Of a stretch of DNA of 64,000 bases, positions 39,106 to 44,655 are shown piece after piece. Source of the DNA: Micrococcales bacterium 73-13 (GTDB lineage: Bacteria; Actinomycetota; Actinomycetes; Actinomycetales; Microbacteriaceae); contig MKVN01000027.1 in NCBI GenBank assembly GCA_001898855.1, positions 21,301 to 85,300 of the forward strand, read 5' to 3'. How positions within the stretch are numbered: position 1 is the stretch's first letter; each line of letters opens with the position of its first letter. Made by a program: the position numbers and the translations under genes. The notes beneath the pieces were generated by a model that did not search any database, was not told the DNA's origin, and saw only the letters and a program-made list of their open reading frames with translations.

Positions 39106-39558
39106 ATGCCTGAGGACGAGAAGTCGCTCGCAGAGCGGTGGTTCGAGGAGCAGCAGGCCTGGCAGAAGACCATGCGCGACTACGGGGACGCGATGGTCAA
39201 GGACGAGCAGTTCCTCATGCACCTCGGGAACGCGATGCGCGGCTCGCTGCTCGCGGGCGTGCCGTATCCGCAGCAGGCGGCGCCCGGCGCGCCCGGTGCC
39301 ACCCCGGAGCCGGCCTCCGACGCGCTCGCCGAGATCCTCTTCGCGCTGAAGCGGATCGACGGCCGGCTGCGCGACCTCGAGGCGAGCGTCGAGGCGCTCG
39401 GCGCGAGCCGGGCGGCCGCCGGCGCGACGCCGGCGAAGACGAAGGCGGCCCGGACCGCGCCCCGGACGCCGACCAGGACGAGCAGGACGACCATGCCGAC
39501 CAAGCCGACCGGGACCGCGGCCCGGCGGCGCGCCCCTCGGACCGCCTCCGGCGAGTGA
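39106..39558 (+). CDS. PHA synthase accessory subunit (PhaE/PhaR-like)
   Basis: A 150-residue protein, ATG at 39106 with ATGGAG 5 nt upstream. The N-terminal half is helical (LAERWFEEQQAWQKTM; QFLMHLGNAMRGSLLAGVPYP), a middle coiled-coil segment is ILFALKRIDGRLRDLEASVEAL, and the last 45 residues are Ala/Lys/Arg/Thr/Pro-rich, like the DNA-binding tails of PhaF-type phasins. It stands 10 bp before a Cys-type PHA synthase, where class III has phaE and class IV has phaR; the size is nearer to PhaR. Assignment is mostly from context. Confidence 0.65.
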   Translation: MPEDEKSLAERWFEEQQAWQKTMRDYGDAMVKDEQFLMHLGNAMRGSLLAGVPYPQQAAPGAPGATPEPASDALAEILFALKRIDGRLRDLEASVEALGASRAAAGATPAKTKAARTAPRTPTRTSRTTMPTKPTGTAARRRAPRTASGE

Positions 39559-39568
39559 GCGACCGCGC

Positions 39569-40726
39569 ATGAGCGACGCGACGACCTCGCCCGAGGGCAT
39601 CGGCGGGTTCGACGGATTCGATCCCGAGGCCGATCGCGACGCCAGCCTGGGCTTCCTGCTCGGCAAGAGCGCCGAGCATCGGCGCCGCCTCGACACCCTT
39701 CGGGAGCTGCTGCTCACCGAGGGGCACTACGGGGACGGCGCGACGCCCTCGACGGTGATCTACGACGAGGCCCCGATGCGCGTGCTGCGCCTGCTCGACG
39801 CCGACGGCCGGCCGTTCCAGGGCCCGCCCGTGGTCTTCGTCCCGGCGCCGGTGAGCCGCTACTTCATCCTCGACCTGCTGCCCGGCCGGTCGTTCGCCGG
39901 GCACGTCGCGGCCGCCGGGCACGACACCTACGTCATCGACTTCGGCATCCCCGGCGAGGAGGACCGCTTCGCCGACCTCGAGTGGTACGTCGAAGGGCTC
40001 ATGCGCCGCGCCCTCCGCGCCGTGCTGCGCTCCACCGGCACCGAGCAGGTGCACGTCATCGGCTACTGCCTCGGCGGCACGTTCTCGCTGCTCTACACCG
40101 CGCTGCACCCGGACCAGGTCGCCACCCTCACGGTGCTCACGACGCTCGTGGACTCCTCGGTCGAGGGCGGGATCGCCTGGGTCGCCACTCGGCTCGGCGC
40201 CGACGGCGAGTCCTACGAGCGGCCGCGGCTCGTCCCGGCCGCCACGGTGAAGTCCTGGTTCGAGGCGCTCGCCCCCGGGTCGAGCAGTCCCGAGGCGAGG
40301 ACGGCCGATCTGCTCCGGCAGCTCGACCTGCCGGTCGAGCAGCTGCAGTCGGTGCGCACGATGGCCTCCTGGGTGGACGACGTCGTGCCCGCCTCCGGCC
40401 GCCTGCTCGCCGAGATCGCCGGCAAGTTCGGCCCCGCCGCGAACGAGCTGATGACCGGGCGCACCACGGTCGGCGACGCCGAGGTCGACCTCGGCGCGAT
40501 CACGATGCCGGTGCTCTCCATCTCCGCGGCGCGCGACCACATCTCCCCGCCGGACGGCTGCGACGCGATCGCCGCGGTCGTGCCGCACGCCGAGATCGTC
40601 CGGATCCCCGGCGGCCACGTCGGCACCGTCGCCGGCAGCCGCGCGGTCGAGCTGTGGGACCGCGTGCTCGGCTTCATCCGGCTCCATCCCCTCCCCACGG
40701 CCGGGGCCCCTCCGGGCTCCGACTGA
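39569..40726 (+). CDS. phaC: Poly(3-hydroxyalkanoate) synthase catalytic subunit (class III/IV-like)
   Basis: A 385-residue alpha/beta hydrolase-fold protein with the PHA-synthase catalytic triad: nucleophilic Cys167 in HVIGYCLGGTFS (lipase box with Cys instead of Ser), Asp323 in ISAARDHISPP, and His350 in IPGGHVGTVAG. The length suits class III/IV synthases (about 355-365) rather than class I (about 590), and those need a PhaE/PhaR partner, which the upstream gene could supply. It polymerises (R)-3-hydroxyacyl-CoA into storage granules. ATG at 39569. First-class evidence for granule formation is the co-occurrence of phasin-like genes. Confidence 0.9.
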   Translation: MSDATTSPEGIGGFDGFDPEADRDASLGFLLGKSAEHRRRLDTLRELLLTEGHYGDGATPSTVIYDEAPMRVLRLLDADGRPFQGPPVVFVPAPVSRYFILDLLPGRSFAGHVAAAGHDTYVIDFGIPGEEDRFADLEWYVEGLMRRALRAVLRSTGTEQVHVIGYCLGGTFSLLYTALHPDQVATLTVLTTLVDSSVEGGIAWVATRLGADGESYERPRLVPAATVKSWFEALAPGSSSPEARTADLLRQLDLPVEQLQSVRTMASWVDDVVPASGRLLAEIAGKFGPAANELMTGRTTVGDAEVDLGAITMPVLSISAARDHISPPDGCDAIAAVVPHAEIVRIPGGHVGTVAGSRAVELWDRVLGFIRLHPLPTAGAPPGSD

Positions 40727-40757: not shown

Positions 40758-41036
40758 ATGACACCGTCGTCGCTCAACCCTCTTCAGCAGCAGGCCATCG
40801 AGGCCCTGAAGCAGCAGCAGGACGCCTACCTCGCCGCGGTGCGCGCGTGGAAGAAGGCCGGCGGGGAGCAGTTCGACTTCTCCTCGGGGATGCCGAACCT
40901 CGGCGCGATGCCGAGCTTCGAGAGCGTCCCGACGGCCGAGGAGCTCGCCGCCTCGAACCAGCTCTTCCTCACCCGGGTGTTCGAGGAGCAGCGGCGATTC
41001 CTCGAGTCGCTCGGCGACATCCTCGGGAGGTCGTGA
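40758..41036 (+). CDS. Small phasin-like protein
   Basis: A 92-residue, mostly helical, Gln/Ala-rich protein: NPLQQQAIEALKQQQDAYLAA at the start and LFLTRVFEEQRRFLESLGD at the end. AAGGAAGG sits 3-4 nt before ATG 40758, which decides this start over ATG 40743. Its stop overlaps the ligase ATG (TGATG). Amphipathic helices and location between PHA synthase and acyl-CoA ligase suggest a granule-surface protein. No formal family is recognised. Confidence 0.7.
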   Translation: MTPSSLNPLQQQAIEALKQQQDAYLAAVRAWKKAGGEQFDFSSGMPNLGAMPSFESVPTAEELAASNQLFLTRVFEEQRRFLESLGDILGRS

Positions 41037-43738
41037 TGCCCGCCGTCGATCGGCGCCCGTGGGTCGGCAGCTACGGCGGGATCCCGCCCGAGCTGCCCAC
41101 CGGCACCGGCAGCATCCTCGACGCCTTCCGCGAGGTCGTGCGGCGCGACCCTGCCGCCGTGCTCGTGCGCTACTTCGACACGGCCCTCACCGCCGGCGAG
41201 ATCGACGAGATGTCGGACGCGCTCGCGGTCGCGTTCCAGGAGCGCGGGATCGCCGCCGGCGACCGGATCGGGATGTACCTGCAGAACGTCCCGCAGGCGA
41301 TGATCACCCTGCTCGGCGCCTGGAAGGCCGGCGCCGTCATCGTGCCGTGCAACCCCATGCTGCGCGGGCGCGAGCTGACGAAGATCCTCTCCGACTCGGG
41401 CTCCCGCGGGATCGTGCTGCACGACGACCTCTACGCGGAGGTCGCCGCGCCCGTGCTGGGGGACACCGCGGTCGAGTTCGCGATCACGACGTGCGGGCTC
41501 GACCTGCTGCCGGAGGGCGATGCCCCGGAGAACCTCGCGGGCATGCAGCGGCAGCGCTTCGAGGCGACCGACGACCTCCTCGAGCTCGTCGCGGCCCACC
41601 GTGGGCGCGTCCCGGAGCCGGTCGAGCTCACCTCCGACGACGTCGCGTTCATGGTCTACACCTCGGGCACGACGGGCGCGCCGAAGGGCGCCATGAACAC
41701 CCACGGCAACGGGCACTTCGCCGCGAGCGTGTACCGGCAGTGGCTGGGCATCGGGCCGGAGACCGTGATCCTGGGCCTCGCGCCGCTGTTCCACGTGACC
41801 GGGCTCGTCGGGCACCTCGTGCTCTCGATGATCTCCGGCGCCCAGCTGCTGCTGTTCTACCGCTTCGACGCGGACATCGCCTGCCGGCTGACGGAGCGGT
41901 ACCGGGCGACGTTCGCGGTGACGGCGATCACGGCGTTCACCGCCCTGCTCGCCTCCGAGGCGATCAAGAAGTACGACATGTCCTCGCTCAGGACCGTCTA
42001 CACCGGCGGCGCGCCCACGCCGACGACGGTCATCGACCAGTGGCGGCAGGCGACCGGCTCGGCGATCCACCCGATGTACGGGCTCACCGAGGTGACCTCG
42101 CCGGGGACGATGACCCCGCTCGGCGCCGACTACCGGGCGGACCCGGAGATGGGGGTCGTCTCGATCGGCGTGCCGGTGCCGAACACGGTCATCCGGATCG
42201 TCAACGACGAGGGGGTCGAGGCCGCGCCGCGCGAGATCGGCGAGCTGCGCATCTCCGGCCCGCAGGTGGTGCCGGGCTACTGGCAGCTGCCGGACGAGAC
42301 CGCGGCGACCTTCGAGGACGGGGAGCTGCGCACCGGCGACATCGGCTTCATGGACGAGGACGGCTGGATCTACCTCGTCGACCGCGCGAAGGACATGATC
42401 ATCGCCTCCGGCTTCAAGGTGTGGCCGAGCGAGGTCGAGGAGGTGCTGCACCAGCACCCCGCCGTGCGGGAGGCCGGCGTGGTCGGCGTCCCGGACGCCT
42501 ATCGCGGCGAGACCGTCAAGGCCTTCGTGAGCCTCAAGCCCGGCGCCGAGGCGACCGCCGAGGAGATCAAGGCCTACGCGCGCGAGCGGATGGCGGCGTA
42601 CAAGTACCCGCGCATCGTCGAGATCCTCGACGACCTGCCGAAGACGACCTCGGGCAAGATCATGCGGCGCATGCTGCAGAACATGAGCGAGGCGGCGGCG
42701 CCCGCCGAGCCCGTGGCGACCGAGCAGGCCGAGGTCGACTACCCGGAGGTGCGCGCCGCGATCGAGGTGCGCACCGTGCTGGAGATCGGCGCGACCTGGC
42801 TGCGGCTCACGCAGGGCGGGATCGCGCCGCGCGAGGCCGCGGCGCTCTACCAGCGGCTGCGGGACGTGCTCGCGCAGCTCGACGAGACCGGCGCGACCCC
42901 GGACCGGGCCGCGTTCCTGTCGGCGAACGAGCGGTTCCACGAGGGCATCGTCGACCTGCTCGGCAACCGGTACCTCTCCGAGGGGTTCCGGCAGCTCGAC
43001 ATGGAGTCGCTGCTCGGCCGCGCGCTCGCCCGCGCCCCCCGGCTGGCGTCGGACTTCGTCGCGGTGCAGGAGCAGCTCAGCGACGCGATCGCCTCCGGCA
43101 ACGCGCAGGGCGCCCGGGCGGCGATCCTCGCCAGGGCGGCGTCCTCGCGGGACACCATCCAGGGCGCGCTCAAGCCGCAGGAGCGGGACGCGGCCGCCCG
43201 GCCCTGGTCGGCGGCCTCCCTGCTGCACGACGCCCAGCACGGGACGCCGGCCGAGCGCGACTTCGCGGCGGACGTCGACGCGCTGCTGCAGGCGCTCGAG
43301 GCGAGGGCGGCGATCGAGATCGGCATCACCCAGCTGCTGGTCTCGGCCGAGACGACGCTGCCGGAGCGGACGCGCTTCGTCGCCAGGCTGAAGGCGGCGA
43401 TCCCGCTGGTCCGCGGCACGGACAGCGCGCACGCCGCCCGGTACACGCGGTCGGACGACGCCTTCCACCGCATCATCATCGGCCTGCTGGAGAACGAGCG
43501 GCTCGTCGAGCTGTACAACCGGATCGACCTGCCGGAGGTGCTGTTCCGGGTGATGGAGGTCACGCCGGTCACGGTGCGCGACGCCCTCGACAACCATCAG
43601 GCGCTGACCGCCGCGCTGCTCGAGGACGAGGCCGATGGTGCGTGCCGGGCCATCGCATCCCACATGATAGAGGTGCGTGCCGCGCTCACGAAGGCTGTGG
43701 CGGCGCAGCACGAGGGAAGGCAGGGGCTCGAGGCTTGA
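41036..43738 (+). CDS. Acyl-CoA ligase fused to two FCD (FadR C-terminal-type) domains
   Basis: A 900-residue protein. Residues 1-550 are a complete ANL-superfamily acyl-CoA ligase: P-loop YTSGTTGAPKG (208-218), MYGLTEVT (347-354), LRTGDIGFMDEDGW (431-444), and the C-terminal Lys541 in KTTSGKIMRR. Residues about 570-712 and 745-890 are two helical modules with the plan of FCD ligand-binding domains of GntR regulators. The second keeps the likely metal set Asp807, His811, His854, His876; the first has Asn631 and His635 but lacks the other two His. No HTH is present. It should activate a carboxylic acid to its CoA ester for the PHA pathway, with the FCD part perhaps sensing an acid or CoA ester. 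Normal ligases end near residue 550. Confidence 0.9.
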   Translation: MPAVDRRPWVGSYGGIPPELPTGTGSILDAFREVVRRDPAAVLVRYFDTALTAGEIDEMSDALAVAFQERGIAAGDRIGMYLQNVPQAMITLLGAWKAGAVIVPCNPMLRGRELTKILSDSGSRGIVLHDDLYAEVAAPVLGDTAVEFAITTCGLDLLPEGDAPENLAGMQRQRFEATDDLLELVAAHRGRVPEPVELTSDDVAFMVYTSGTTGAPKGAMNTHGNGHFAASVYRQWLGIGPETVILGLAPLFHVTGLVGHLVLSMISGAQLLLFYRFDADIACRLTERYRATFAVTAITAFTALLASEAIKKYDMSSLRTVYTGGAPTPTTVIDQWRQATGSAIHPMYGLTEVTSPGTMTPLGADYRADPEMGVVSIGVPVPNTVIRIVNDEGVEAAPREIGELRISGPQVVPGYWQLPDETAATFEDGELRTGDIGFMDEDGWIYLVDRAKDMIIASGFKVWPSEVEEVLHQHPAVREAGVVGVPDAYRGETVKAFVSLKPGAEATAEEIKAYARERMAAYKYPRIVEILDDLPKTTSGKIMRRMLQNMSEAAAPAEPVATEQAEVDYPEVRAAIEVRTVLEIGATWLRLTQGGIAPREAAALYQRLRDVLAQLDETGATPDRAAFLSANERFHEGIVDLLGNRYLSEGFRQLDMESLLGRALARAPRLASDFVAVQEQLSDAIASGNAQGARAAILARAASSRDTIQGALKPQERDAAARPWSAASLLHDAQHGTPAERDFAADVDALLQALEARAAIEIGITQLLVSAETTLPERTRFVARLKAAIPLVRGTDSAHAARYTRSDDAFHRIIIGLLENERLVELYNRIDLPEVLFRVMEVTPVTVRDALDNHQALTAALLEDEADGACRAIASHMIEVRAALTKAVAAQHEGRQGLEA

Positions 43739-44655
43739 GCACGAAACACTCCGTCGGCGTGCCGGATTCCGCCGCCCCGTTCCTGCGCGGCGCCGACACG
43801 GACCAGCCGGTCTACGGCAGGTCGAACGGCATCTGGTGGCGGGCCTCCGGCTCCGGCGACCCGCTGGTGCTGGTGCAGGGCCTGGGCTACCCGGCGGCGA
43901 TGTTCCACCGGCTGGTGCCGCTGCTGGAGCCGCACTGCCGGGTCGTCGTGTTCGACCAGCGCGGGATCGGCAACAGCGCCGGCGCGAACGGCCTCGACTC
44001 CCTGACGATCGGCCGGATGGCCAGCGACGTGGTCGCCGTGATCGACGACGCCGCCGGGGGCAGCGCCGACGTGATGGGCGTCAGCCTCGGCGGCATCGTC
44101 GCGCAGGAGCTCGCGCTCGCCTATCCGCGGCACGTGCGGCGCCTCGTCCTGGCCGGCACGCACACCGCCGGCGCCGAGGTGGTGCTGGCCGAGCAGGAGG
44201 TGCTGGAGATGATGCAGCGCCGCTCGATGCTCGCCGACGAGGAGGCGCTGCGCTGCTCCCTGCCGTACGTCTACGCGCCCTCGACGCCGAAGCGGCTCAT
44301 CGAGGAGGACATCGCGGTCCGGCGCGCGATGCATGTCGGCTGGGACGGGTACAACGCGCAGCTGCGGGCGACGATGCAGTACAGCGGCACCGCCGCGCGA
44401 CTGCCGCGGATCCAGGCGGAGACGCTCGTGATCCACGGCGAGCTGGACCGGCTGGTGCCGCCCGGCAACGCCGTCGTGATCAGCGAGCGGATCCCCGGCG
44501 CGCGGCTGCGGATCCTGCCCGGCCTCAGCCACAACTTCTACAGCGAGGCGGCGAGGACGGCGGCGGCCGAGATCCTCCCGTTCCTGACGGCACCGCGGTC
44601 GGCGCACCAGCACGGCCCGATCGAGCTGGAGCACGCCGGCGCGAAGGTTGCTTGA
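43735..44655 (+). CDS. Alpha/beta hydrolase
   Basis: A 306-residue hydrolase. The nucleophile elbow is MGVSLGGIVAQ (Ser), acid in IHGELDRLVPPGN (Asp), and His in LPGLSHNFYSE. It looks like 3-oxoadipate enol-lactonase or esterase types. The TTG start at 43735 overlaps the ligase stop (TTGA), with AGGGAAGG and AGGGG upstream. As the last gene before the phasin promoter, it may be an intracellular PHA depolymerase, oligomer hydrolase or thioesterase, but no depolymerase-specific domain is seen. Confidence 0.88.
   Translation: MSTKHSVGVPDSAAPFLRGADTDQPVYGRSNGIWWRASGSGDPLVLVQGLGYPAAMFHRLVPLLEPHCRVVVFDQRGIGNSAGANGLDSLTIGRMASDVVAVIDDAAGGSADVMGVSLGGIVAQELALAYPRHVRRLVLAGTHTAGAEVVLAEQEVLEMMQRRSMLADEEALRCSLPYVYAPSTPKRLIEEDIAVRRAMHVGWDGYNAQLRATMQYSGTAARLPRIQAETLVIHGELDRLVPPGNAVVISERIPGARLRILPGLSHNFYSEAARTAAAEILPFLTAPRSAHQHGPIELEHAGAKVA

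Follow-up and report, generated by a model that had tools for sequence, protein, structure and literature searches.

We found that a 900-residue protein encoded in a PHA cassette of Micrococcales bacterium 73-13 is a putative AMP-forming acyl-CoA ligase that ends in two consecutive FCD domains. FCDs have been described as the effector part of transcription factors. We propose that in this protein the FCD pair controls the CoA-activation step of the cassette's ligase post-translationally, a proposal to which we give an even chance of being right. The best reading of such control, and a plausible one, is that the FCD domains act as an allosteric gate on the ligase that responds to an acid or a CoA ester. 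Coordinates refer to the window, i.e., the whole stretch of 64,000 nucleotides that was analysed (contig MKVN01000027.1, positions 21,301 to 85,300), and those of the cassette and of the domains are collected in Table 1.

Table 1. The ligase-FCD-FCD gene, its domains and the surrounding PHA cassette in the window.
Feature	Coordinates	Strand	Basis
PhaE-like/granule-type small protein, upstream of PhaC	39106..39558 (conserved part; ORF opens 38968)	+	46-62% identical partner gene
PhaC, class III-like PHA synthase	39569..40726	+	TIGR01836 E 8.2e-50; Cys lipase-like box GYCLG (Cys167)
Phasin-like small protein 1, 92 aa	40758..41036	+	Homologues in L030/L053 and L049
ANL-FCD-FCD fusion protein	41036..43738	+	Pfam; orthologues of same architecture
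ANL acyl-CoA ligase part, residues 1-550	41036..42685	+	Pfam AMP-binding, AMP-binding_C; motifs
FCD domain 1, residues 570-706	42743..43153	+	Pfam FCD; hhalign vs FCD2
FCD domain 2, residues 744-890	43265..43705	+	Pfam FCD; TM0439 column alignment
Alpha/beta hydrolase (PHA depolymerase / enol-lactonase-like)	43735..44655	+	Pfam Abhydrolase_1 2.2e-23
Phasin-like small protein 2, 101 aa	44715..45020	+	72% identical in L030, 32-38% in gammaproteobacterial cassettes
XRE-family regulator (HTH_3/HTH_31), ~119 aa	45128..45487	+	Pfam; 57-71% identical, cassettes of both phyla

The initial annotation had described a complete ANL ligase (residues 1-550) followed by two FCD modules, with no DNA-binding domain, and had proposed comparing the modules with Pfam FCD. 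Pfam analysis bore out each part of this description. The open frame runs uninterrupted from its ATG to a TGA, with a GC3 of 0.91-1.0 along its entire length. AMP-binding was matched at residues 31-416 (E 5.5e-82) and AMP-binding_C at residues 466-541 (E 4.5e-25), and FCD (PF07729) was matched in two stretches (E 2.9e-21). Scored separately, FCD1 and FCD2 reached 47.3 and 45.7 bits respectively, about twice the gathering cut-off of 24.3 bits, and both domains of the orthologues L030, L031 and L032 also exceeded it (6/6). Neither GntR (PF00392) nor any other HTH or DNA-binding domain was matched at E<=1 in the 900 residues; the protein lacks the winged helix (PF00392) that stands ahead of the FCD in regulators of the GntR/FadR family. 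The ligase part shows the sequence hallmarks of an ANL acyl-CoA ligase: besides the two Pfam domains, it has the P-loop TSGTTGAPKG, GLTE, the hinge Asp449/Arg450 and a catalytic-type Lys541 in PKTTSGK, core motifs that are invariant across 7-8 orthologues. It scored below every NCBIfam cut-off seen, PRK08314 coming closest (448.5 vs 705 bits). Only ~20 residues separate the lid of the ligase from FCD1.

A search for further proteins combining AMP-binding with FCD, also proposed initially, returned seven more copies in six other genomes, one of Micrococcales and five of Gammaproteobacteria, at 53-65% identity. With the window included, 8 loci in 7 genomes from two phyla thus encode the fusion architecture. 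Among genomes sampled once per species, three full-length relatives were detected, those of Micrococcales bacterium 31B (65% identity to the window protein), a gammaproteobacterial MAG (54%) and Candidatus Rariloculus versatilis (53%). Searching the gammaproteobacterial order added genomes G465, G479 and G522, plus a second copy in G444. This second copy, a diverged ligase-FCD-FCD protein of a gammaproteobacterial MAG (L050:1463-3937, minus strand), lies in an assembly with N gaps and was excluded from the FCD1 domain statistics. The fusion is rare: no further carrier was detected in four samples of 395 Actinomycetes, 296 genomes of the phylum, 369 Gammaproteobacteria and 349 Pseudomonadota, evenly drawn, each containing one known carrier and with few candidates scored per genome. 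Since carriers occur in two phyla and none was found among near relatives, the distribution points to horizontal spread. The C-terminal part had no close relative among plasmids and no relative in viral_contigs, phage records matched the ligase part only, and PADLOC reported no match to an anti-phage system.

Conservation differed along the protein. Identity between the window protein and its seven relatives was 55-73% over residues 1-430 of the ligase and 75-87% over residues 431-550; against relatives, it was 37-57% in FCD1, 50-52% in FCD2 and just 11-19% in the spacer between them. Because the FCDs are conserved while the spacer diverges, both FCDs are under selection and the spacer is not.

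In a HMMER alignment, the metal positions of FCD2 fall in the same columns as the histidines with which TM0439 binds metal. The full candidate metal set that had been read from FCD2, Asp807, His811, His854 and His876, was indeed found at these positions (codons at 43454, 43466, 43595 and 43661), and FCD2 displays the pattern of the metal-binding FCD subgroup, i.e., Asp/Asn-x3-His, His, and a further His 22 residues on. Its spacing (811-43-854-22-876) agrees with TM0439 and Ps5454, with a 22-residue step between the last two histidines. D807, H811 and H854 were kept in 8/8 orthologues and H876 in 7/8, the closest orthologue (L030) having Gln in its place. Arg757, 793, 802 and 848 of FCD2 were invariant. 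Metal residues have been reported for DgoR (D146/H150/H195) and LldR (H148/H196/H218) (PMC7674646, PMC4746285), and for Ps5454 (N144/H148/H192/H214) and TM0439 (H134/H174/H196) (PMC7674646). In known FCDs the metal lies within the effector pocket and is required to bind D-galactonate or citrate; DgoR needs its metal to bind ligand though not to bind DNA, and loss of His191 in CitO lowers metal, DNA and citrate binding (PMC7674646, PMC4746285).

The alignment of FCD1 to FCD2 spans 127 columns with 27% identity (hhalign E 9.6e-15) and places N631, H635, Q678 and R700 at the metal positions; the subgroup pattern is absent from FCD1 of the window. N631 and H635 were invariant wherever readable among orthologues. 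At position 678 the two actinobacterial copies have Gln where the gammaproteobacterial orthologues have His; Arg or Trp occupies position 700. FCD1 had been said to have lost two histidines, and Q678 and R700 do occupy their aligned positions, both histidines being lost only in actinobacterial FCD1s. The further suggestion of one sensing and one structural module stood in part: the sequences separate a metal-competent from a degenerate domain, but gammaproteobacterial FCD1 retains Asn-His-His. Such a division of roles may be limited to the actinobacterial copies.

The ligase gene belongs to a seven-gene cassette with PhaC, a PhaE-like protein, two phasin-like proteins, an alpha/beta hydrolase and an XRE regulator, in line with the earlier assignment to a PHA locus. 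The cassette is shared by Actinomycetota and Gammaproteobacteria. Phasin-like protein 1 is encoded between PhaC and the ligase, its TGA overlapping the ligase ATG, and the start of the hydrolase overlaps the ligase stop. The same gene set surrounds the ligase in Micrococcales 31B, whereas the gammaproteobacterial cassettes have a different order (XRE, ligase, phasin-like, PhaE-like, PhaC, hydrolase). Directly 3′ of the window cassette lies a gene for a tocopherol-cyclase-like protein (PF14249; 45551-46552, plus strand).

PhaC scored 169.8 bits against TIGR01836, below the curated cut-off of 365.3 bits, and by its sequence is a divergent relative of class III PHA synthase. It is 60-70% identical across all partner cassettes, and the window PhaC together with these relatives may form a PhaC subgroup of its own, linked to the cassette. 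In the gammaproteobacterial order, PhaC relatives of at least 60% identity (~62%) were found in exactly 4/97 genomes, the same four that hold the ligase, the next relatives being 29-34% identical; none of 58 other actinobacterial relatives had a matching PhaC. The PhaE-like protein gave no Pfam or NCBIfam match and lies beside PhaC in every cassette read, in both phyla; we infer its PhaE role from this position. Neither phasin-like protein matched anything in Pfam; both are conserved in the cassette across phyla, and they are a possible new phasin family. The hydrolase reached 80.6 bits with TIGR02240 (PHA_depoly_arom), under the cut-off, and a homologue was identified in all cassettes but those of L049, whose contig ends inside PhaC, and of L050. 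No protein above the cut-off of the acetoacetyl-CoA reductase family TIGR01829 was detected in any of the 7 carrier genomes, which makes the ligase a candidate monomer supplier. This result would be consistent with a cassette fed by acids that its ligase converts to CoA esters.

How could the FCD domains act in this setting? In Pseudomonas putida granules, an acyl-CoA synthetase is found alongside polymerase and depolymerase (PMC2788523), and control of enzyme activity has been suggested to prevent futile cycling (PMC3918157). A sensor built into the ligase would serve to limit such cycling. In the allosteric reading, FCD2 would hold a divalent metal and bind a carboxylate or hydroxyacid, be it a substrate, a pathway intermediate or a depolymerisation product, and would pair with FCD1 inside one chain in the manner of two GntR FCDs in a dimer. 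Ligand binding would then shift the FCD unit relative to the mobile AMP-binding_C lid directly before FCD1, a lid that has to change position between the conformations for adenylation and thioesterification. As a result, the supply of CoA ester for PhaC would be turned up or down, and a futile cycle with the neighbouring hydrolase would be averted.

We counted in favour of gating that the FCDs pass Pfam in every orthologue tested, that the metal set of FCD2 is kept and that the cassette is conserved. The Gln at the His876 position of L030 was counted against it, as was the low confidence of the structure models. AlphaFold models gave a mean pLDDT of 51 for the C-terminal part and 45 at full length, a low confidence explained by the mere 7 sequences in the alignment. 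The C-terminal part was predicted to be all-helical, and its high-probability Foldseek matches were solely FCD repressors (VanR/Atu1419, DhdR, DgoR, McbR, PdhR and TM0439), the best E being 0.03 with this poor query model.

Phylogenetic trees placed the ligase FCDs in one group, both with 42 domains (90/79) and with 47 domains (95/87). In both trees the FCD1s formed one group within it and the FCD2s another, so the pair arose by one tandem duplication predating the spread between phyla. Outside the orthologues, in two genomes a BenC-type reductase with an FCD at its C-terminus, and no GntR protein, was the best match to the C-terminal profile. The reductase has 2Fe-2S, FAD and NAD domains and exceeds the NCBIfam BenC cut-off; this BenC-FCD protein, without a DNA-binding domain, is encoded in Micrococcales (L038:1489-3060 and L010:1489-3060, both minus strand). 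Longer fusions were observed in plasmid records: a Pfam-scanned BenC-FCD-P450 protein of 929 aa in Paraburkholderia (L069:3001-5790, plus strand), equalled in length by a second Paraburkholderia protein (L071:3001 onward, plus strand), and a BenC-FCD-SDR protein of 860 aa in Tsukamurella, beside benA and benB (L070:3001-5583, plus strand). L069 and L070 are annotated as BenC only. The ligase and BenC FCDs joined against the GntR FCDs at 94/94 in the first tree, but support dropped to 78/75 when more GntR FCDs were included, leaving a shared enzyme-borne ancestor as one possibility. Like the ligase fusion, the BenC fusions carry an enzyme-borne FCD without a GntR DNA-binding domain, and their FCD keeps Asn-x3-His, His and His; unlike it, they have an oxygenase reductase as the enzyme and a single FCD. 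It is conceivable, though we hold it only tentatively, that PHA-cassette ligases, benzoate-dioxygenase-type reductases and P450/SDR fusions form an enzyme class in which metal-dependent FCDs sensing aromatic or hydroxy acids switch catalysis, the FCD pseudo-dimer throttling PHA synthesis against breakdown.

The BenC-P450 and BenC-SDR fusions also suggest that an FCD could be a structural insert between enzymes, and they keep serious the main rival of the gating proposal. According to this rival, the FCD pair serves oligomerisation or scaffolding: it dimerises the ligase or docks it to PhaC, phasins or the granule, with no ligand effect. FCD is the dimerisation domain of FadR-type GntR proteins, e.g., the 'C-terminal dimerization domain' of PdhR (5tpm, a Foldseek match), and a spacer or assembly role would be natural for an FCD that links a reductase to a P450 or SDR. 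The granule-type proteins of the cassette and the actinobacterial FCD1, devoid of the metal set, would likewise suit a scaffold. However, FCD2 has preserved D-H-H-H in both phyla, which a pure scaffold would not require, although a structural metal could account for it. We judge this rival unlikely.

It is improbable that the FCD pair is instead the signalling head of a trigger enzyme, addressing the XRE regulator or another partner and so controlling cassette transcription. An XRE regulator (57-71% identity) accompanies every cassette read, and FCDs of GntR proteins relay the ligand state to DNA-binding domains; yet autorepressors of the XRE/phasin type could sense granules and act alone. Very improbable, too, is a role in capturing substrate or product, or in handing the CoA ester to PhaC, without allostery. 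FCD pockets bind acids through metal, the ligase substrate is an acid and the PhaC gene is adjacent, but the pockets are buried in helical bundles and are ill suited to channelling a CoA ester. Finally, two genes joined by assembly error or chance read-through can practically be dismissed, in-frame linkers being present at all 8 loci of both phyla and each tested orthologue passing Pfam; the seven further copies with the same fusion rule out an assembly error or frameshift.

Several known systems are close to the ligase-FCD-FCD protein. In FCD profile, and probably in fold, it resembles the metal-binding FadR-type GntR repressors (TM0439, DgoR, CitO, LldR/CGL2915, Ps5454 and VanR/Atu1419), with which FCD2 shares Asp/Asn-x3-His...His-x21-His and invariant arginines in pocket-forming helices. 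It differs from these repressors in being a fusion protein without a winged helix, with two enzyme-borne FCDs per chain. With ANL ligases of the FadD type (PRK08314/PRK06187) it shares full adenylation and lid domains and the core motifs, solved relatives being feruloyl-CoA synthetase (8wev), 3g7s and malonyl-CoA synthetase (4fuq); unlike them, it has a 350-residue C-terminal extension with two FCDs. The granule acyl-CoA synthetase of P. putida GPo1 is similar in that a CoA ligase stands beside polymerase, depolymerase and phasins in both, and the available part of its description reports no FCD (PMC2788523). The same functional pair occurs in mycobacterial PRK07868 (NF005898; 994 positions), a PhaC-like/acyl-CoA synthetase fusion to which the window PhaC is related through the PhaC-like portion (E 1.3e-17). 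Its fusion partners differ from those of the window ligase, and we know of no FCD in PRK07868.

The initial annotation knew of no described enzyme with the ANL-FCD-FCD architecture, and we likewise found none: no paper in the open-access literature searched describes FCD as the fusion partner of a CoA ligase, a PHA enzyme, BenC or a P450. The component families are all known; their combination and the conserved cassette appear to be new. With its two FCDs and, in all copies read, an accompanying PHA synthase, this conserved ligase would exemplify the direct reuse of a repressor sensor for the control of catalysis. It would make a PHA question, how futile cycling of polymerisation and depolymerisation is avoided, testable in one protein, and the tandem FCD may provide a transferable acid-sensitive switch for CoA ligases. 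ACT and RAM domains are common to enzymes and Lrp-type regulators, and the reuse of a repressor sensor proposed here would be comparable in principle to that sharing.
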